The position numbers and the translations under genes were made by a program. The notes under the pieces are model-generated. The model did not search any database, was not told where the DNA came from, and saw only the letters and a program-made list of their open reading frames with translations. Below are positions 1-9,296 of a DNA stretch of 10,219 bases, piece after piece (within the stretch, counting starts at the first letter, position 1; every line of letters begins with the position of its first letter). Origin of the DNA: Spirochaetales bacterium Spiro_01 (lineage in GTDB: Bacteria > Spirochaetota > Spirochaetia > Sphaerochaetales > Sphaerochaetaceae); the NCBI GenBank assembly GCA_001604265.1, contig LVBC01000078.1, positions 1 to 10,219 on the forward strand. The letters are read 5' to 3'.

Positions 1-1661
1 CTGGTCTTCCGGACCCTGAGACGGGCAACTACCTCATAACTCCAGAGGCCTTTGCAGAGGAGATGAGGGGCTTTCTCGAGCTCGGTGTGGATATAGTCGG
101 TGGCTGCTGTGGAACGACTCCCGCCTTCATCAGGGCACTTGCAGCGCTCCCAAGGAAGATTGGAACCAGAACAAAGGCCACTAGGCGCGGTGTCTGCTCT
201 GCTTCGCACATGAGTGAATTTTCTGGAGTGAAGGTCATCGGAGAGAGGATAAATCCTACCGGAAAGAAGCGCTTCCAGCAGGCTCTGAGAGAGCATGACA
301 TGAACTACATAATGGAGAGAGCGATCGAGCAGGCAGAGGCAGGAGCGGACATCCTGGATATCAACGTAGGAGTTCCGGGTCTCGATGAGAAGGCGCTCAT
401 GAAGGAGGTCGTTCAGGCAGTCCAGAGTGTCGTCGACCTTCCTCTCCAGATAGACTCCTCCAATACAGAGGCCATCGAGGTCGGTCTCAGATACACGAAT
501 GGAAGGGCAATCGTAAACTCTGTGAATGCAGAGGATGAGAAGCTCGATGCAGTTCTCCCTCTTGCAAGGAAGTACGGTGCGGCCGTTGTCGGCCTTGCCA
601 TCGGAAAGAACCTTCCAAGGAGTGCAGAAGAGAGGTTCTCCTTTGCAAAGAGGATAATGGAGAGGGCACTCGAGAGCGGAATCGAGAAGGAGGATATTCT
701 CATAGACTGCCTCACGCTGACGATATCTGCCCAGCAGGAGCAGGCTGCAGAGACACTTAGGGCTGTAAGACGAGTGCACGAGGAGCTTGGTCTTCACAAC
801 GTACTTGGAGTCAGCAACATCTCGTTCGGTCTTCCGGAGAGAAGCCACATAACGACAAGCTTCCTGACACAGGCGATGCTCTGTGGACTCGACTTTCCGA
901 TCGTCAATCCGAACAGCACTGCGATCATGGATGCTGTTGCAGCCTTCAAGGCCATCTCCGGTGAGGATAGAAGCTGTACAGACTACATCGAACGCTTTGT
1001 GAACGCAGAGAAGAAGGAGATGGCACCAAAGGTCTCTGGCGACATGACGATAGCAGAAGCGGTGCTGAAGGGGCTTGCCCAGGAGACAGAGAATCTCACA
1101 AGGGCAAAGCTTGAGACGATGAGCGAGCTTGATGTGATAAACAGGGAGCTCATACCTGCACTCGATCAGGTCGGATTGAGGTATGAGAAGCAGGAGATAT
1201 TCCTTCCACAGCTCATAAATGCGGCGAACGCGGCCTGCAAGGGCTTCGATCTCATAAAAAAGCGCATCGCAGGACGAAGTGGCGAAAGCATCTCGAAGGG
1301 AAAGATAATCATCGCGACCGTCGAGGGCGACATACACGATATCGGAAAGAATATCGTCAGAGTAGTCCTTGAGAACTACGGCTATCAGGTGATCGACCTT
1401 GGAAAGGATGTTCCTGTAAGCACAGTAGTCGAGAGGATGATCAAGGAGGATGTACACCTCGTCGGACTTTCTGCCCTGATGACGACGACTGTCGAATCGA
1501 TGAAGCGGACCATAGAGGCGATAAGGAGAACAGGGCACGAGTGCACGATATTCGTAGGTGGCGCAGTGCTCACTGAAAAGTATGCGATGGAGATAGGCGC
1601 GGACTACTACTCGAAGGATGCGAAGGCCGCTGTGGATATTGCAAGGAAGGTGCTGGGATGA
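1..1661 (+). CDS. metH: Cobalamin-dependent methionine synthase, 5'-truncated by window edge
   Basis: The enzyme transfers the methyl group of methyl-tetrahydrofolate to homocysteine through a cobalamin cofactor, giving methionine in the cytoplasm. The frame is open to the left edge (first full codon at base 3), and the residues before the first ATG at 63 continue the homocysteine-binding domain, so that ATG is internal. In order, the sequence shows the end of the homocysteine domain with the zinc-ligand motif GGCCGTTP (about 102-125), the pterin-binding domain (from about 230; VIGERINPTG, DINVGVPG, QIDSSN), and a B12 cap plus Rossmann domain with DIHDIGKN, whose cobalt-ligand His codon is at 1335-1337. 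The protein ends just after the B12 domain, so the C-terminal SAM-dependent reactivation domain of E. coli MetH is absent. The stop overlaps the next start (ATGA, 1658-1661), indicating one operon. Family assignment is secure; the missing N-terminus is outside the window. Confidence 0.95.
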   Translation, partial: GLPDPETGNYLITPEAFAEEMRGFLELGVDIVGGCCGTTPAFIRALAALPRKIGTRTKATRRGVCSASHMSEFSGVKVIGERINPTGKKRFQQALREHDMNYIMERAIEQAEAGADILDINVGVPGLDEKALMKEVVQAVQSVVDLPLQIDSSNTEAIEVGLRYTNGRAIVNSVNAEDEKLDAVLPLARKYGAAVVGLAIGKNLPRSAEERFSFAKRIMERALESGIEKEDILIDCLTLTISAQQEQAAETLRAVRRVHEELGLHNVLGVSNISFGLPERSHITTSFLTQAMLCGLDFPIVNPNSTAIMDAVAAFKAISGEDRSCTDYIERFVNAEKKEMAPKVSGDMTIAEAVLKGLAQETENLTRAKLETMSELDVINRELIPALDQVGLRYEKQEIFLPQLINAANAACKGFDLIKKRIAGRSGESISKGKIIIATVEGDIHDIGKNIVRVVLENYGYQVIDLGKDVPVSTVVERMIKEDVHLVGLSALMTTTVESMKRTIEAIRRTGHECTIFVGGAVLTEKYAMEIGADYYSKDAKAAVDIARKVLG

Positions 1662-3415
1662 ACATAAAAGAGTACTTACAGAACAACATACTCCTCTTCG
1701 AGGGAGCAATGGGTACCTACCTCTCTTCTCTGGGAAGGACCTATCGCAAGAGCCCTGAGGAGGCGGTCCTCGACAGCCCCGAGCAGGTTGCGGCCATACA
1801 CAGAGAGTACCTGGAAGCGGGAGCACGTGCTCTCAAGACAGATACATTCTCTGCAAACAGGCTGAACTATCCCGAGAGTGCTGCTGCAATCATAGAAAAG
1901 GCCTGCAGCATCGCGCTGAAGGAGGCCGAGAGCTACAGTGCCTTTGTCTTTGCAGATATCGGTCCCATCGAATTTGCAGAGGAGAAGGGCGATGCGGCAA
2001 CAGAGTTCAAGTGGGTCGCGGACCGCTTCCTTGAAAACGGTGTTACCAACTTCCTCTTCGAGACGAACTCCTCCCTGGAGGGGCTTGAGACTGTCGCTGC
2101 ATACATCAAATCGAGAAATCCGGACTCGTATATAATCGTCTCATTCGCAATACTTCCGGATGGCTTTACCCGCTATGGTCTGTTTGCAAAGGACCTTATC
2201 GAGGTCGTGAAGAGGAACGTGTACATCGACTCATTCGGCATGAACTGCGTCCAGGGTGCTACACACATGAAGGAGACACTCTCCAAGCTCGATATAGGCG
2301 AGAAGGTGATCTCTGCAATGCCGAATGCAGGCTATCCGATCGTCGTTGGGCACAGGACAAGGTACGATGGGGACCCATCCTTCTTTGCACAGTCCGTCCT
2401 CGACATGGCAAGACTGGGAGCCAGAATACTCGGTGGCTGCTGCGGAACCACACCCTCTCATATCAGAAGGGTACATGAACTTCTCTCCAGACAGGGAGTC
2501 AGAGTCAAGGAGAGGAAGAGAAGCGAGAGTGCAGGAATAATAGACCGGGTTGTAAGCCCTTTCTGGGAGAAGCTCATGCGGGGTGAGAAGGTGATCGCTG
2601 TAGAGCTCGACCCACCTGAGATCGCTTCGATGGACAGGTTCATGGGAGGTGCCTGGAACCTCAAGAGCTCCGGAGTCGATATCATCACAATCTCGGACTG
2701 CCCGATCGCAAGAGCAAGAATGGATTCGAGCCTTCTTTCGTGCAAGGTCAACAGGGAACTGCACATGGAGTCCCTTCCGCACCTGACCTGCCGTGACAGG
2801 AATCTCAATGCGACAAAGGCGCTACTGCTCGGGCTCTATGCAGAAGGGATCAGGAATGTGCTTCTCGTGACCGGGGATCCTATTCCCACAGCAGAGCGAG
2901 ATGAGGTGAAGAGCGTATACCAGTTCAACTCCAGGAAGCTTGCTGCCTTTGTAAGCGCACTTGGACAGGAGAGTCTGCCCTCCGGCTTCCATATCTTCGG
3001 CGCTCTGAATGTCAATGCGACGAACTTCGACTTCCAGCTGAAGCTTGCGAAGGAGAAGATACAGAACGGGATGATCGGCTTCCTGACCCAGCCTGTGCTG
3101 AGCCTGGAGGCTCTTGAGAACCTGAAGAGGGCCCACGAGGAGCTCGATGCATTTATCCTGGGCGGCATGATACCTGTAGTCAGCGAGAAGAATGCCCGCT
3201 TCATGGACAGCGAGATAAATGGCATCAGGGTCTCACAGAGGATAATCGACGAGTACCGGGGAAAGGATAGGGATGAGTGCGAGAAGCTTGCAGTCGAGAT
3301 GACTGTCCATATCGCGAAGGAGATTTCTCCATACGTCGATGGCTACTATATCATCACACCATTCCAGCGGGTCTCCCTGATGACCCAGATCGTCAGGAAT
3401 ATCAAAAAACTGTGA
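1658..3415 (+). CDS. Bifunctional homocysteine S-methyltransferase / 5,10-methylenetetrahydrofolate reductase
   Basis: A 585-residue fusion with the architecture of Bacillus YitJ. Residues 1 to about 285 form a homocysteine S-methyltransferase barrel: it starts with LFEGAMGT and carries the three expected zinc-ligand cysteines, C197 (GMNC) and C261/C262 (GGCCGTTP). Residues from about 300 to 585 form a methylenetetrahydrofolate reductase (FAD) barrel with the acid residue E316 (VELDPPE), HLTCRDRN at 375-382 and LVTGDP at 403-408. The reductase makes 5-methyl-tetrahydrofolate, the methyl donor for the MetH encoded just upstream. The start is set by ATGA overlap with metH and by AAGGAAGG seven bases ahead. 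The odd point is that the upstream MetH also has a homocysteine domain, so the operon encodes two. Whether the N-terminal half makes methionine, uses another donor such as S-methylmethionine, or only supports MTHFR cannot be told from sequence. Confidence 0.93.
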   Translation: MNIKEYLQNNILLFEGAMGTYLSSLGRTYRKSPEEAVLDSPEQVAAIHREYLEAGARALKTDTFSANRLNYPESAAAIIEKACSIALKEAESYSAFVFADIGPIEFAEEKGDAATEFKWVADRFLENGVTNFLFETNSSLEGLETVAAYIKSRNPDSYIIVSFAILPDGFTRYGLFAKDLIEVVKRNVYIDSFGMNCVQGATHMKETLSKLDIGEKVISAMPNAGYPIVVGHRTRYDGDPSFFAQSVLDMARLGARILGGCCGTTPSHIRRVHELLSRQGVRVKERKRSESAGIIDRVVSPFWEKLMRGEKVIAVELDPPEIASMDRFMGGAWNLKSSGVDIITISDCPIARARMDSSLLSCKVNRELHMESLPHLTCRDRNLNATKALLLGLYAEGIRNVLLVTGDPIPTAERDEVKSVYQFNSRKLAAFVSALGQESLPSGFHIFGALNVNATNFDFQLKLAKEKIQNGMIGFLTQPVLSLEALENLKRAHEELDAFILGGMIPVVSEKNARFMDSEINGIRVSQRIIDEYRGKDRDECEKLAVEMTVHIAKEISPYVDGYYIITPFQRVSLMTQIVRNIKKL

Positions 3416-3421
3416 TGTCCC

Positions 3422-3450
3422 TTGTCGCTTCCTTCAATCTAAGGTAATAT
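3422..3450 (+). promoter_or_regulatory. Candidate sigma-70-type promoter for the leader peptide and metA
   Basis: TTGTCG (3422-3427) and TAATAT (3445-3450) are separated by exactly 17 bases, each matching the consensus hexamers at 4 of 6 positions. A start near 3457 would give a leader of about 22 bases before the Met-rich ORF. The match is moderate, and metA could instead be read from upstream. Confidence 0.4.
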
Positions 3451-3476
3451 CTGACGTATATTCAGAAGGAGGCGAC
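3424..3476 (+). repeat. 12-bp inverted repeat in the metA control region
   Basis: The left arm GTCGCTTCCTTC (3424-3435) and right arm GAAGGAGGCGAC (3465-3476) are complementary at 11 of 12 positions. The one difference would be a G.U pair in RNA, so all 12 positions pair as RNA. The 29-base spacer holds a smaller 5-bp inverted repeat (AATAT 3446-3450, ATATT 3458-3462). The right arm contains the whole Shine-Dalgarno of the Met-rich leader ORF. It could be an RNA stem hiding that ribosome site in transcripts read through from the upstream operon, or a pair of operator half-sites around the promoter. Confidence 0.7.
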
Positions 3477-3478
3477 AT

Positions 3479-3532
3479 ATGGATTACAGACTTTATTCTA
3501 TGGCTTCCCTCATGATGCCTTTCGGGGCATGA
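3479..3532 (+). CDS. Met-rich 17-residue leader peptide upstream of metA (putative attenuator ORF)
   Basis: The short ORF reads MDYRLYSMASLMMPFGA and then TGA. It has a near-perfect ribosome site, AGAAGGAGG, with six bases between GGAGG (3468-3472) and the ATG. Met occupies codons 1, 8, 12 and 13, far above normal Met frequency. Codons 12-13 (3512-3517) lie in the 5' arm of the hairpin at 3509-3533, and the stop codon (3530-3532) lies in its 3' arm. The next gene is metA, a methionine-pathway gene. Together these are the hallmarks of a ribosome-mediated transcription attenuator sensing methionyl-tRNA: a ribosome paused on codons 12-13 would sit on the terminator stem and let polymerase through. 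The regulatory role is inference. The ORF, its ribosome site and the overlap are direct readings. Chance occurrence cannot be excluded without homologues. Confidence 0.6.
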   Translation: MDYRLYSMASLMMPFGA

Positions 3533-3545
3533 GTTTCATTTTTTT
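3509..3545 (+). terminator. Intrinsic terminator / attenuator hairpin before metA
   Basis: CTC (3509-3511) pairs with GAG (3531-3533), and ATGCCT (3515-3520) pairs with GGGCAT (3525-3530) around a TTCG tetraloop (3521-3524). One ATG triplet (3512-3514) is bulged. A T-rich run, TTTCATTTTTTT, follows at 3534-3545. This has the form of a Rho-independent terminator. It ends transcripts from the metH operon, from the leader promoter, or both. It lies 54 bases before the metA start, so metA expression must pass it unless there is a promoter in 3546-3599, where none is evident. Confidence 0.7.
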
Positions 3546-3599
3546 CCACAAAGTCATAAAACAACAATCACTGCAAACAGGGAACACAAGGAGTGAACC

Positions 3600-4535
3600 A
3601 TGCCTATTCTTCTACCAAAAGACTATCCACATTCAGATGAACTGAAAAGAAAGAACGTATTCGTGATGACGGATACCAGAGCCTCCTCTCAGCAGATAAG
3701 GCCGCTGAAGATAGGAATCCTCAATCTGATGCCTACGATAGAGACGACCGAGATCCAGCTGATGACGATGCTGGCAAATACTCCGCTGCAGATAGACCTG
3801 AAGCTCATAATGATGGAGACGGACCATAGGAAGGCTGAGGACATGAACCACCTCAAGCAGTTCTATGTAAAGTTCGACGATGTCCTGAATGACAAGTTCG
3901 ATGGTCTTATCATCACAGGTGCACCCGTCGAGAAGCTACCGTTCGAGCAGGTAGACTACTGGGATGACCTTGCACTCTTCATGGATAACTCCAGAAAGAA
4001 CGTCTTCTCAACTGTCCACATCTGCTGGGGCTCCCAGGCCGGTCTCTATCGCCACTATGGCATAGAGAAGAAGATGCTTACGAACAAGCTTTTCGGCGTC
4101 TTCAACCATCAGCTGCTGCACAAGAACTATGACAACCCACTTACAAGGGGTTTCGATGACAGGTTCCTTGTTCCACATTCGAGATTCACTATGGTCGATA
4201 TCGATGCCGTGAAGGCGAACCCGAATCTTGAGATACTGGACGAGTCGTACTTTGCAGGTCCCCATATAATAGCAACGAAGAACAAGCGCCAGGTCTTCCT
4301 CAATGGCCACTGGGAGTACGACAGGGGAACGTTGATGAGGGAGTACAACAGGGACCTCGGCCTCAAGGCGGAGAGCGCTGTTCCTCCATACAACTACTTC
4401 GTCGCGGACAAGCCAGACTTCGGCGTGGAGGTCACCTGGAAGGCGCATGCCAACCTCTTCTACTCGAACTGGCTGAACTTCGTATATCAGGGCACACCCT
4501 ACGATCTCGAGGAGATGGAAAGCATCGAAGAGTGA
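3600..4535 (+). CDS. metA: Homoserine O-acetyltransferase (MetA family)
   Basis: The enzyme acylates the hydroxyl of homoserine, the first committed step from homoserine to methionine, in the cytoplasm. At 311 residues it is near the family's usual length. It carries the catalytic Cys142 in HICWGSQA and the His237/Glu239 pair in NGHWEYD. Residue 111 is Glu (ITGAPVEKLPF). In characterised MetA proteins Glu at this site goes with acetyl-CoA and Gly (E. coli) with succinyl-CoA, so the name homolog's 'succinyltransferase' label is probably wrong here. AAGGAG at 3588-3593 gives good spacing to the ATG. It follows the metH/MTHFR operon in the same direction but sits behind its own leader and terminator, which suggests separate, methionine-responsive control. 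The product would need an O-acetylhomoserine sulfhydrylase or cystathionine gamma-synthase, neither of which is in the window. Confidence 0.95.
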   Translation: MPILLPKDYPHSDELKRKNVFVMTDTRASSQQIRPLKIGILNLMPTIETTEIQLMTMLANTPLQIDLKLIMMETDHRKAEDMNHLKQFYVKFDDVLNDKFDGLIITGAPVEKLPFEQVDYWDDLALFMDNSRKNVFSTVHICWGSQAGLYRHYGIEKKMLTNKLFGVFNHQLLHKNYDNPLTRGFDDRFLVPHSRFTMVDIDAVKANPNLEILDESYFAGPHIIATKNKRQVFLNGHWEYDRGTLMREYNRDLGLKAESAVPPYNYFVADKPDFGVEVTWKAHANLFYSNWLNFVYQGTPYDLEEMESIEE

Positions 4536-7118: not shown

Positions 7119-7949
7119 ATGTCAAGAGCGGACCAGATTTTCATTGAGAATGTAAAAGACATACTTGCAAACGGTTTTTCTGATGAGGGGCTTGATGTAA
7201 GACCTCATTGGGAGGATGGAGAGCCGGCACATACGATAAAGAAGTTCGGCATCGTCAACAGATACGACCTCAGAGAGGAGTTCCCGATCCTTACAATAAG
7301 AAAGACCTTCATGAAGTCCAGTATCGACGAGCTTCTCTGGATCTGGCAGAAGAAGTCCAACAGGATCGCGGATCTCCACTCCCACGTCTGGGATGAGTGG
7401 GCCGACGAGAATGGTACGATCGGCAAGGCCTATGGCTACCAGCTGGGCATCAAGCACCAGTACAGGGAGGGCATGTTCGACCAGGTCGACAGGGTCATCT
7501 ACGACCTGAAGCACAATCCCCAGTCCAGAAGGATATTGACCAATATCTACAACTTCGAGGACCTGCACGCAATGCAGCTCTATCCATGCGCATACTCGAT
7601 GACCTTCAACGTCTCAGGAAGGACACTCAATGGAATCCTGAATCAGCGCAGCCAGGATATGCTTGCCGCCAACAACTGGAATGTCGTCCAGTACTCTGTT
7701 CTGCTCTACATCCTGGCCCAGGTCTGCGACCTTGAAGCCGGTGAGCTTGTACATGTGATCGCAGATGCCCACATCTACGACAGGCACATTCCTATCGTCA
7801 AGGAGATAATCGAGAACGAGCAGTATCCGGCTCCGAAGTTCGTGATGAACCGGGATATCAGGGACTTCTACCAGTTCACAAGGGATGACTTCAGGCTCGA
7901 AGGCTACGTTGCGAACACCAAGAAGTACGATATCCCAATAGCCATCTGA
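7119..7949 (+). CDS. thyA: Thymidylate synthase
   Basis: ThyA methylates dUMP to dTMP using 5,10-methylenetetrahydrofolate and releases dihydrofolate. At 276 residues it matches the usual length. The nucleophile is Cys157 in LYPCAYS; QRSQDM and NNWNVVQY supply the conserved substrate-binding Arg, Asp and Asn; and HIYDRH closes the dUMP site. The wording around the active site (PCAYS rather than PCH, NNWNV rather than LPFN) belongs to a ThyA variant I associate with Clostridia and other anaerobes rather than the E. coli type. GGGAGGAGAAG precedes the ATG. The dihydrofolate it makes is recycled by the folA product encoded 18 bases downstream, the classical pair. The dependence on 5,10-methylenetetrahydrofolate also makes it a competitor of the MTHFR domain encoded at 1658-3415. 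Confidence 0.96.
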   Translation: MSRADQIFIENVKDILANGFSDEGLDVRPHWEDGEPAHTIKKFGIVNRYDLREEFPILTIRKTFMKSSIDELLWIWQKKSNRIADLHSHVWDEWADENGTIGKAYGYQLGIKHQYREGMFDQVDRVIYDLKHNPQSRRILTNIYNFEDLHAMQLYPCAYSMTFNVSGRTLNGILNQRSQDMLAANNWNVVQYSVLLYILAQVCDLEAGELVHVIADAHIYDRHIPIVKEIIENEQYPAPKFVMNRDIRDFYQFTRDDFRLEGYVANTKKYDIPIAI

Positions 7950-7967
7950 TAGAGAGCAGAGTACAGC

Positions 7968-8480
7968 ATGCAGGCGATTCTACATTGCGACAGAGAGTGG
8001 GGCATCGGGAAGAATGGGACACTTATGTTCTCCATTCCAAAGGACATGAAGTTCTTCAGATCCACGACACTTGGAAAGGTGGTCGTCATGGGCTCAAGGA
8101 CCCTCGATTCCTTTCCCGGAGGAAAGCCCCTGAAGAAGAGGACCAACATCGTCCTCTCGACAAGAATAAGCGAGGAAAGGGCCAGAGAGGATGGCTTTGT
8201 CCTGGTCCGCTCGAAGTCCGAGCTCTTTTGCGAGCTGAAGAAGTACGACAGCGACGACGTTTTCATCATAGGAGGCGCACAGCTCTACTACACGATGCTT
8301 CCGTACCTGGACAGGGTGCTTGTCACAAAGGTGGATGCTGTGGGCGGTGCCGATACCTTCTTCCACGATCTTGACAGCGACCCGGACTGGCGCCTTGAGA
8401 AAGAGAGCGAGAGTGTGGAGGATAATGGGTACAGTATCCGCTTCTGCACCTACGTGAACCTGAACAGAAGACTCTTCTGA
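7968..8480 (+). CDS. folA: Dihydrofolate reductase
   Basis: FolA reduces dihydrofolate, here made by the adjacent ThyA, to tetrahydrofolate with NADPH. It is the target of trimethoprim-type antifolates. The 170 residues fit the family (about 160-170). Seen are the Met20-loop region REWGIGKNG (9-17), the catalytic acid D26 in FSIPKDMKFF, the NADPH-binding stretch VVMGSRTLDSFPGGKPL (39-55), and IGGAQLY (101-107). W11 sits in the loop before GIG, where E. coli has a smaller residue. The start is set by homology, because only a weak purine stretch (AGAGAGCAGAG) precedes the ATG. Translation may depend on ribosomes arriving from thyA. It is the last gene of the run, followed by a strong hairpin. 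Confidence 0.95.
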   Translation: MQAILHCDREWGIGKNGTLMFSIPKDMKFFRSTTLGKVVVMGSRTLDSFPGGKPLKKRTNIVLSTRISEERAREDGFVLVRSKSELFCELKKYDSDDVFIIGGAQLYYTMLPYLDRVLVTKVDAVGGADTFFHDLDSDPDWRLEKESESVEDNGYSIRFCTYVNLNRRLF

Positions 8481-8486
8481 TTGAAA

Positions 8487-8519
8487 GAATATGGGCCCCG
8501 TTTCAAACGAGGCCCATTC
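8487..8519. terminator. Bidirectional terminator between convergent folA and dapB
   Basis: TGGGCC (8492-8497) pairs with GGCCCA (8511-8516), a C/A mismatch follows, and CGTT (8499-8502) pairs with AACG (8506-8509) around a three-base loop. GAA (8487-8489) and TTC (8517-8519) can extend it. The next bases are ATTCTGTCTTC on the + strand and ATATTCTTTC on the - strand, so it can serve both genes. It begins seven bases after the folA stop and ends 19 bases before the dapB stop. Confidence 0.75.
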
Positions 8520-8537
8520 TGTCTTCATCAGATTCCA

Positions 8538-9296
8538 TCAATTCCTGAAGAAGTCCGAAAGGAAGTCATCCATGCAGTAGACGCCCGGCTTCTGCTCGAT
8601 GATCCAGGAGGCGGCCTTTACAGCGCCGTTTGCAAATCCCTCCCTCGTCCTTGCCGAGTGCTGGATCGTGATAGTATCCTCAAGTGCATCGAAGGTGACT
8701 GTGTGGATGCCTGGAACCTCTCCGATCCTCTGGCTTGTCAGCGATATCTCATCCTTCTGGGCATTCAGATTCGTAGTGTACCTGGTCTTTCCGTCAAGCT
8801 CGTCTACAAGGACGTTCGCGATCATGATGCCGGTTCCGGAGGGTGCGTCGAGCTTGTGGCGGTGGTGCACCTCGTTGACTGCGACACTGTAGTTGTCCAG
8901 CTTGTTGAAGAGCTGTCCGGCTCTCCTGATTATCTCCATTGTGACTGCAACACCGAGCGAGTAGTTTCCGGACCAGATGAGCTTTGCTCCTGTTCCTTCT
9001 GCCATGGCCTTCACCTCATCGAGCCTGTCGTACCAGCCGGTAGTACCGATGACTGCAGGAATCGCATTGTCGATGTAGAACTTCATGTTGTCGATGATAG
9101 TCTTTGGGGAGGAGAAGTCGATAAGACAGTCGAAATCCTGCTTCTTGATGTACCTCACCTCCTGCACAGTGACATTCTTGTCGTTCGAGAAGGGGTCCAC
9201 TATGACCTTTACATCATGTCCAGCCCTGTCTGCTGCCAGGTGGATCATCTTTCCCATCTTGCCATAACCAACGATTGCAATTCTCATGGTGTCCAT
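8538..9296 (-). CDS. dapB: 4-hydroxy-tetrahydrodipicolinate reductase
   Basis: DapB reduces the product of DapA with NAD(P)H in the diaminopimelate/lysine pathway, feeding cell-wall and lysine synthesis. The protein starts with the Rossmann motif IVGYGKMGKM, has IGTTGW in the middle, and carries the active-site signature VHHRHKLDAPSGTG, in which His and Lys are the usual catalytic residues. The 252-residue length is typical. Two starts are possible. The ATG at 9296 has AAGGG six bases upstream. The ATG three codons later (9287), giving MRIAIVGYG, has AAAGGA about eight bases upstream and agrees better with the usual N-terminus of the family. It is alone on the - strand, convergent to folA and divergent from the CobW-type gene. 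It has a long upstream region with hairpins. Confidence 0.95.
   Translation of the reverse strand: MDTMRIAIVGYGKMGKMIHLAADRAGHDVKVIVDPFSNDKNVTVQEVRYIKKQDFDCLIDFSSPKTIIDNMKFYIDNAIPAVIGTTGWYDRLDEVKAMAEGTGAKLIWSGNYSLGVAVTMEIIRRAGQLFNKLDNYSVAVNEVHHRHKLDAPSGTGIMIANVLVDELDGKTRYTTNLNAQKDEISLTSQRIGEVPGIHTVTFDALEDTITIQHSARTREGFANGAVKAASWIIEQKPGVYCMDDFLSDFFRN

Follow-up and report, generated by a model that had tools for sequence, protein, structure and literature searches.

Sequence comparison shows that a family of methionine leaders, not described before, exists in the spirochaete family to which the DNA analysed here belongs, and that one member lies ahead of metA in the stretch under study (the window, 10,219 nucleotides at full length). 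On balance, the leader in the window is likely to be a methionine attenuator of metA that is read by the ribosome. A wider reading is quite possible, though tentative: a spirochaete leader class, likewise not described before, that would sense Met-tRNA, control methionine uptake across the family, and have been recruited once to metA. Leaders of this class would have no antiterminator and two clusters of Met codons in fixed register (typically MMM-SS-MMM-P), a parked ribosome would open a hairpin, and a second hairpin between the Shine-Dalgarno (SD) sequence and an anti-SD stretch would limit reading to the first ribosome.

The leader and hairpin ahead of metA

The window covers bases 1-10219 of contig C36, from a genome that is 62.7% complete. 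Its genes run in the order metH, a fused homocysteine methyltransferase/MTHFR gene, a 184-base gap, metA, and a HAD hydrolase gene (Table 1), and positions 7119-9296 hold genes for thymidylate synthase and dihydrofolate reductase, with dapB on the opposite strand. The metH gene is probably split over two contigs, with its 5′ end at the end of contig C245 (L160). The open reading frame (ORF) that precedes the metH start there probably encodes the activation domain, and a search of this 5′ end with covariance model R2, described below, found no leader of this kind.

Table 1. Features of the metA region, numbered from the first base of the window
Feature	Position	Strand	Details
metH part (methionine synthase)	63-1661	+	cut off by contig start
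Bifunctional homocysteine S-methyltransferase / methylenetetrahydrofolate reductase	1658-3415	+	553 bits, cut-off 453
Candidate promoter	3422-3450	+	TTGTCG (3422-3427), 17 nt, TAATAT (3445-3450); predicted start near 3457
13-bp inverted repeat	3423-3477	+	arms 3423-3435 and 3465-3477; -20.3 kcal/mol, predicted
Leader SD	3466-3472	+	AAGGAGG; SD match length 7; ATG 6 nt away
Leader ORF	3479-3532	+	MDYRLYSMASLMMPFGA; ATG 3479-3481, 17 sense codons, TGA stop 3530-3532; read from the sequence
Covariance-model match	3485-3547	+	R1, R2 (window copy among training copies), R3 (built without it)
Anti-SD	3503-3508	+	GCTTCC; predicted pairing with GGAGGC (3468-3473), forming hairpin H1
Hairpin H2	3509-3533	+	CTCATGATGCCTTTCGGGGCATGAG; Met codons 12-13 inside 5′ arm, TGA inside 3′ arm
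T-rich tail	3534-3545	+	TTTCATTTTTTT; directly 3′ of H2
metA, homoserine O-acyltransferase	3600-4535	+	best NCBIfam match MetA_acetyl, 399 bits, under cut-off 460.5

The initial annotation described a 17-codon ORF with a strong SD sequence and Met at codons 1, 8, 12, and 13, and the sequence reads exactly so. The hairpin and T-run that it placed across this ORF, 54 bases before metA, are also present, and 67 bases separate the leader stop from the gene. H2 has a predicted energy of -9.0 kcal/mol alone and -10.0 kcal/mol with flanks. One of the tandem Met codons was said to be bulged and the other paired, which agrees with the predicted fold, as either ATG pairs with CAT in two registers (-6.6 and -7.4). 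The predicted H1 pairing in the window is a run of 6 pairs, the family median being 8.

The element exceeds chance expectation. An ORF with an SD sequence (SD-ORF) overlapping a hairpin and T-run was found in 2 of 116 upstream gaps of at least 70 nt in 468,435 bases of the same genome (~29% of it), namely the window and one weak case, and in 1 of 318 gaps in 716,032 bases of other loci. A rival account would make H2 an ordinary terminator of the metH-metF operon and the ORF a chance one, with metA under a promoter of its own. It draws on the fact that H2 and its T-run form the only such hairpin found in the 184-base gap between the fused gene and metA, and on the best promoter in the gap being no better than shuffled sequence: the candidate in Table 1 is the top site in 3400-3599, yet its score of 8.13 is within the shuffle range (median 7.31, 90% 9.20). 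Past the hairpin, no promoter-like site in the gap rises above shuffles, the best score being only 2.89 (shuffle median 3.87). This account is very improbable, given also that the independent model R3 ranks the window first in 468 kb and that the SD sequence, Met codons, and H1 are common to other copies. Promoter spacing ahead of the metQ leaders is similar, judged by eye only.

The inverted repeat upstream of the leader would hide the leader SD only in RNA that starts upstream of 3423, that is, in transcripts reading in from metH-metF. Stems of 13 pairs occurred in 14 of 1000 dinucleotide shuffles of this region, and the candidate -35 hexamer falls within the 5′ arm of the repeat. Inverted repeats can protect against read-through, as in IS10; this role was considered for the 13-bp repeat, which was seen in the window copy, and the reading was not used.

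A leader family in front of methionine-uptake genes

A pattern search of the window's own genome gave 43 matches compared with 9 in a backwards control. Loci were examined for 30 of the 43; the hairpin scan was positive only in the window, and a second leader, on contig C77, was recognised by eye. This leader, MSNNVLMMYAGFSMMCPSRA, precedes a MetQ-like gene and ends like the window leader, with ATGATG..GGGCATGA. Six close orthologs of the gene (69-78% identical), which together with C77 represent three genera, all carry a leader: MRNNFSTAIMMSSMMMPFGA, MNNYKNSTMSYMCMLSMMMPLWA, MNNYKNSTMSYMCMLSMMMPIWA, MKKINSSVMFSMCMLSSMMMPFWA, MNTMNNSMMSYMCQLSMCMPCRA, and MKKEYLFIMSSMCMVSSMMMPFGA. The stem GATGATGCCC..GGGCAT..YATC, or a shifted version of it, is predicted in all seven metQ-type leaders, and the 45-nt stretches around it have predicted energies of -10.3 to -13.2 kcal/mol.

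The C77 MetQ-like protein (L288:1862-2776, minus strand) looks circularly rearranged. Its C-terminal region (~195-300) matches the start of MetQ profiles, its two parts match ordinary MetQ genes separately and in swapped order, and the layout is common to the six relatives.

Three covariance models were used, with E-values that are rough because calibration was short. R1, built from eight leaders (the seeds) and applied at E ≤ 0.01 with strict filters, found matches in 55 of the 394 class genomes, each of them a member of the window's family. R2, built from 68 copies and applied at E ≤ 0.05, matched 85 of 139 family genomes, 47 of the 75 good-quality ones, and 9 of 22 genera; two of the 85 genomes depend on E-values above 0.02. 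R3 was built from 59 copies, leaving out the window, C77, and the other seeds, on an alignment made with R1. Within the 468,435 bases of the window's genome, R3 scores highest at the window (32.5 bits, E 9.9e-5), followed by C77 (30.2 bits, E 3.5e-4), while its third match, at 18 bits, is at chance level. The window thus belongs to the leader family by its match to a model built without it, although its copy is divergent compared with the six other seeds, the metQ leaders of other genomes, which R3 recovers at 42-72 bits.

The copies described below number 69, being 71 R1 matches less L422 (at the same place as L331) and a second, 19.2-bit match in L372. L418 was retained, with 17.5 bits and E 0.7 in R1 and E 1.7e-5 in R2 at the same place, and L391 and L392 share one leader, leaving 68 distinct peptides. 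In tblastn comparisons the next gene resembles the L363 MetQ gene in 59 copies, the rearranged C77 MetQ gene in 7, and MetA in 1, with 2 like none of these. The next genes of L363 and L405 score best against MetQ models and that of L386 against oligopeptide-binding models, all under the curated NCBIfam cut-offs, and L403 resembles L386. By these similarities, 66 of the 69 copies are predicted to precede MetQ-like methionine-uptake genes, two peptide-binding protein genes, and one metA. The distance from leader stop to gene is 67-145 nt in 67 loci, L386 and L421 not being counted. Leaders ahead of an oligopeptide-binding protein gene were seen in two genomes of one genus, L386 (G116:C45) and L403 (G019:C29), and because of these two the regulated set may include peptide uptake.

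Anatomy of the leaders

Every one of the 69 copies contains a Met-rich ORF in which three or more Met codons follow the start and which has a tandem pair; the presence of the pair is partly by construction, as tandem ATGs are built into the models. The median leader is 20 codons long, Met makes up 27% of the codons after the start, and 67 of the 69 copies have an SD match of at least 5. ATG triplets within the leader ORFs number 361 in frame and 8 and 24 in the other two frames, or 319 against 6 and 21 in the 61 non-seed copies; no probability is drawn from these counts, given the relatedness of the copies and the inclusion of the ATG run in the models.

The Met codons form two clusters with a gap between them. 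Relative to a Pro codon, Met frequency is 0.87, 0.96, and 0.96 at positions -3 to -1, 0.00 at -4, 0.13 at -5, and 0.67, 0.52, and 0.71 at -6 to -8; in the window, a single upstream Met (codon 8) takes the place of the upstream cluster. The gap is a pyrimidine stretch (TCCTCC, TTCTCC, CTCTCC, etc.) complementary to the leader's own SD sequence, with a pairing run of median 8 and mean 8.17 pairs, whereas other stretches of these ORFs average 4.54. The predicted H1 duplex has a median energy of -12.1 kcal/mol in 66 copies, L386, L421, and L403 being excluded from the energy comparison. The same anti-SD stretch can pair weakly with the SD of the downstream gene (predicted median -5.2 kcal/mol compared with -2.7 for other stretches, 66 copies), which would suit translational control of the kind known from erm leaders, where a parked ribosome frees the downstream SD. 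Since the anti-SD pairs far better with the leader's own SD and the predicted openness of the downstream SD is unchanged by a parked ribosome (0.41, 0.43, 0.44), we consider this the least probable of the explanations weighed here, with hardly any likelihood.

Judged from codon usage and stop positions, the H2 stem is held at the RNA level. The Pro codon is CCC in 65 of 69 copies and the Ala codon GCA in 66 of 66, and the codon before Ala is always NGG (AGG, GGG, CGG, or TGG), so that Arg, Gly, and Trp interchange. The stop is TAA in 26 leaders, TGA in 25, and TAG in 18; in L398, L412, and L419 it comes right after MMMP, inside the loop, and the stem is retained. Covariation is absent in the alignment of eight copies and slight in that of 59 (6 of 561 cells, with a score above all 500 shuffles), an alignment that was fitted to the structure and consists of related copies. 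Another hairpin, GGTCC..GGGACAT, was seen by eye between leader and gene in L363, L365, L366, and L330, and not in L371 or ahead of metA.

Proposed mechanism and direction of the response

From the leader family, its Met codons, their frame, the predicted folds, and the next genes, all read from sequence, we infer termination, ribosome parking, and a direction of response. The RNA would start about 20 nt before the leader ORF. In H1, the leader SD would be paired with the pyrimidine stretch that immediately precedes the Met run, shutting out ribosomes that arrive late and leaving the decision to the first. With Met-tRNA in short supply, this ribosome would park where the 5′ arm of H2 holds the tandem Met codons, in fixed register; H2 could then not form, and RNA polymerase would continue into metA. 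With Met-tRNA plentiful, H2 would form either before the ribosome arrived or after it had departed, and transcription would terminate early.

The initial annotation had a ribosome at the tandem Met codons covering the 5′ arm of the stem, and the register of the Met run, fixed in 69 of 69 copies, bears this out. The Met (or Met/Cys) run before Pro begins one (60 copies) or two (9 copies) codons after the first codon whose ribosome footprint reaches the Pro codon. Predicted H2 pairing in the eight seeds is at most 0.04 from the first codon of the run onward, L333 being low (0.05) even without a ribosome. Because of the fixed register and this low pairing, a ribosome waiting on the Met run would keep H2 open.

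Readthrough at low methionine is the likeliest direction, held with moderate confidence. It is preferred because of the next genes and the described behaviour of amino-acid leaders, which give readthrough when their amino acid is low (PMC1183508). The geometry points the other way. Toy models of coupling, run with 36 and with 72 parameter sets, have readthrough fall under starvation in 35 and 72 of them, respectively, and rise in none. With usual footprints for ribosome and polymerase, a polymerase at the T tail in the window leaves a ribosome room only to about codon 13, so an unstarved ribosome that keeps up would also cover H2. As the toy models never give the proposed sign, shut-off at high methionine requires the first ribosome to arrive late, the decision to come at a later point, for instance through Rho, or some further step. 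Suppression is reported to be far lower for terminators within the first 100 bp of a coding region, where coupling has yet to be established (PMC4824070).

The sign of the toy models is that of coupling as in pyrBI, where transcription terminates unless a ribosome follows closely, so that abundant Met-tRNA would give readthrough and starvation termination. The stem lies inside the ORF, as it does in pyrL, and it is reported that terminators close to stop codons are repressed by ribosomes and that pyrBI requires them (PMC4824070 and PMC10135430). Shut-off at low methionine would, however, make little sense for next genes that resemble those of methionine uptake or synthesis, and the Bacillus subtilis bmrB leader, which also has its terminator in the ORF, shows the opposite sign, slow translation switching the genes on (PMC4191407). 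Coupling of the pyrBI kind is therefore unlikely, while still deserving some weight. Readthrough at low methionine remains the preferred direction.

The terminator score of H2 in the window is -15.4, compared with 24.9 to 42.3 for six E. coli attenuators. It is near the median of gene-end hairpins in the same genome, 47% of which score no higher, and the H2 stem is weaker than 88% of them; this comparison used hairpins within 150 nt of gene ends, with 58 of 339 ends having one. Tails across the family are enriched in T from +3 to +8 (frequencies of 0.28 to 0.77 by position) but interrupted; the median score is -44.3, and 3 of 69 copies score at least -15. With T tails this imperfect, H2 may fall short of intrinsic termination in most copies. 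A Rho-dependent arrangement would accommodate such weak terminators: a departing ribosome would expose a C-rich, G-poor stretch for Rho loading, and a parked ribosome or an altered fold would keep Rho away. In 64 of the 69 copies, which come from many related genomes, the 45 nt following the leader stop contain more C than G, compared with 69 of 160 comparable stretches of the window's own genome. The arrangement is nevertheless improbable, as the C-rich stretch lies past a ribosome parked on the Met run and the T tail of the window copy is among the better ones. Returning to the proposed attenuator, no antiterminator pairing common to the eight seeds was found between 25 nt before the ATG and 6 nt past the stop, and L333 and L335 have private alternatives.

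metA in other genomes

A metH match was found in only the window's genome among the 16 of its genus, and metA in 3 of the 16 (one a fragment) and in 85 of 139 family genomes. Up to 300 nt upstream of 154 distinct metA genes, from these genomes and 80 named loci, were scanned; a hairpin with T-run was found in 31, an SD-ORF in 24, and the two overlapping in one, the window. The expectation that relatives would keep a Met-rich leader and terminator ahead of metA was thus not borne out, with the window alone among 154. The part of the initial annotation that stands is a methionine leader with an overlapping hairpin and a conserved pattern, conserved ahead of metQ-like genes instead.

No such leader lies upstream of metA in the nearest relative with a full metA (G003, 86% identical). 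A search of 81 family metA loci with R3 gave nothing better than E 0.19, at chance level, and a search of 80 named metA loci from mixed phyla with R2 gave two 17.9-bit matches (E 0.64), neither of them at metA. Six genomes of the neighbouring genus have both the fused gene and metA, in every case on separate contigs, and metA was not next to the fused gene in five loci read 350 nt beyond it. From these metA comparisons, the layout of fused gene, leader, and metA is private to the window's genome among those examined. DNA homologs of the gap were found in 2 of 61 and 2 of 139 genomes, in each case the window's own genome and a 31-base match in a G006 coding sequence. An alignment of the nearest metA's promoter and SD sequence to the leader start was weak (14 of 1000 shuffles in a short test, 110 of 500 in a wide one) and was not used.

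Relation to known regulators

Methionine genes are usually under SAM riboswitches, T-boxes, or repressors, and SAM riboswitches and T-boxes precede the same kind of target genes in the same role. Rfam gave no match to the element in any of the eight copies searched (the window, C77, and six others), the few sub-threshold matches lying elsewhere. The only match to the SAM riboswitch RF00162 in the window's genome is sub-threshold and inside a long ORF, presumably hexokinase-like by reading, and RF00162 is above its cut-off in 4 of 61 relatives. No methionine leader-peptide attenuator was found in the accessible text of the literature searched, with subscription papers outside its scope. An Actinobacteria survey reports no such RNA element for methionine (PMC1262725), and a 2010 paper, which added Firmicutes, describes leader peptides as known until then from Proteobacteria and Actinobacteria alone (PMC2965389).

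The leader resembles E. coli thrL, trpL, leuL, ilvL, and pheL in having a short SD-ORF, codons for the amino acid of the next gene, and a hairpin with a T-rich tail; the control codons match the amino acid made or imported by the next gene, as assigned by similarity. It differs from these five in its amino acid, in a stem that overlaps the ORF and its stop, in the lack of an antiterminator common to the seeds, and in its far weaker terminator score. The stems of the five E. coli attenuators start 22-47 nt after the leader stop, whereas that of the window starts 23 nt before the last base of the stop, confirming the overlapping-ORF type of geometry first described for it. The leader is set apart from the trp type because its stem precedes the stop and no common antiterminator was found. 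It would therefore work like an amino-acid leader attenuator but without two of the defining features of the trp type.

In the E. coli pyrBI leader, pyrL, the ORF likewise contains the terminator stem. This leader responds to UTP by way of polymerase pausing (PMC10135430), whereas here Met codons lie in the stem and the stop at its end. The pyrL stop is 27 nt past the stem; the window stop ends 1 nt before the stem end, and those of the 69 copies range from 13 nt before to 2 nt after it. B. subtilis bmrB likewise has a terminator within its leader ORF, with readthrough reported on slowed translation, but it senses ribosome-targeting drugs and is modelled with an antiterminator, and no run of codons for a single amino acid is noted in the accessible part of that report (PMC4191407).

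Significance

The distribution of the leader suggests that one regulator moved from an uptake gene to a biosynthesis gene. Because metH and metA are so rare in the genus, many of its members may be methionine auxotrophs that need the leader-preceded uptake genes. Because methionine starts every protein, a shortage of it should affect initiation at the same time as the control codons, and the system has the oddity that its geometry predicts a different sign from its biology. If the proposed reading is true, a family-wide methionine leader of spirochaetes would add one amino acid and one phylum to leader attenuation.
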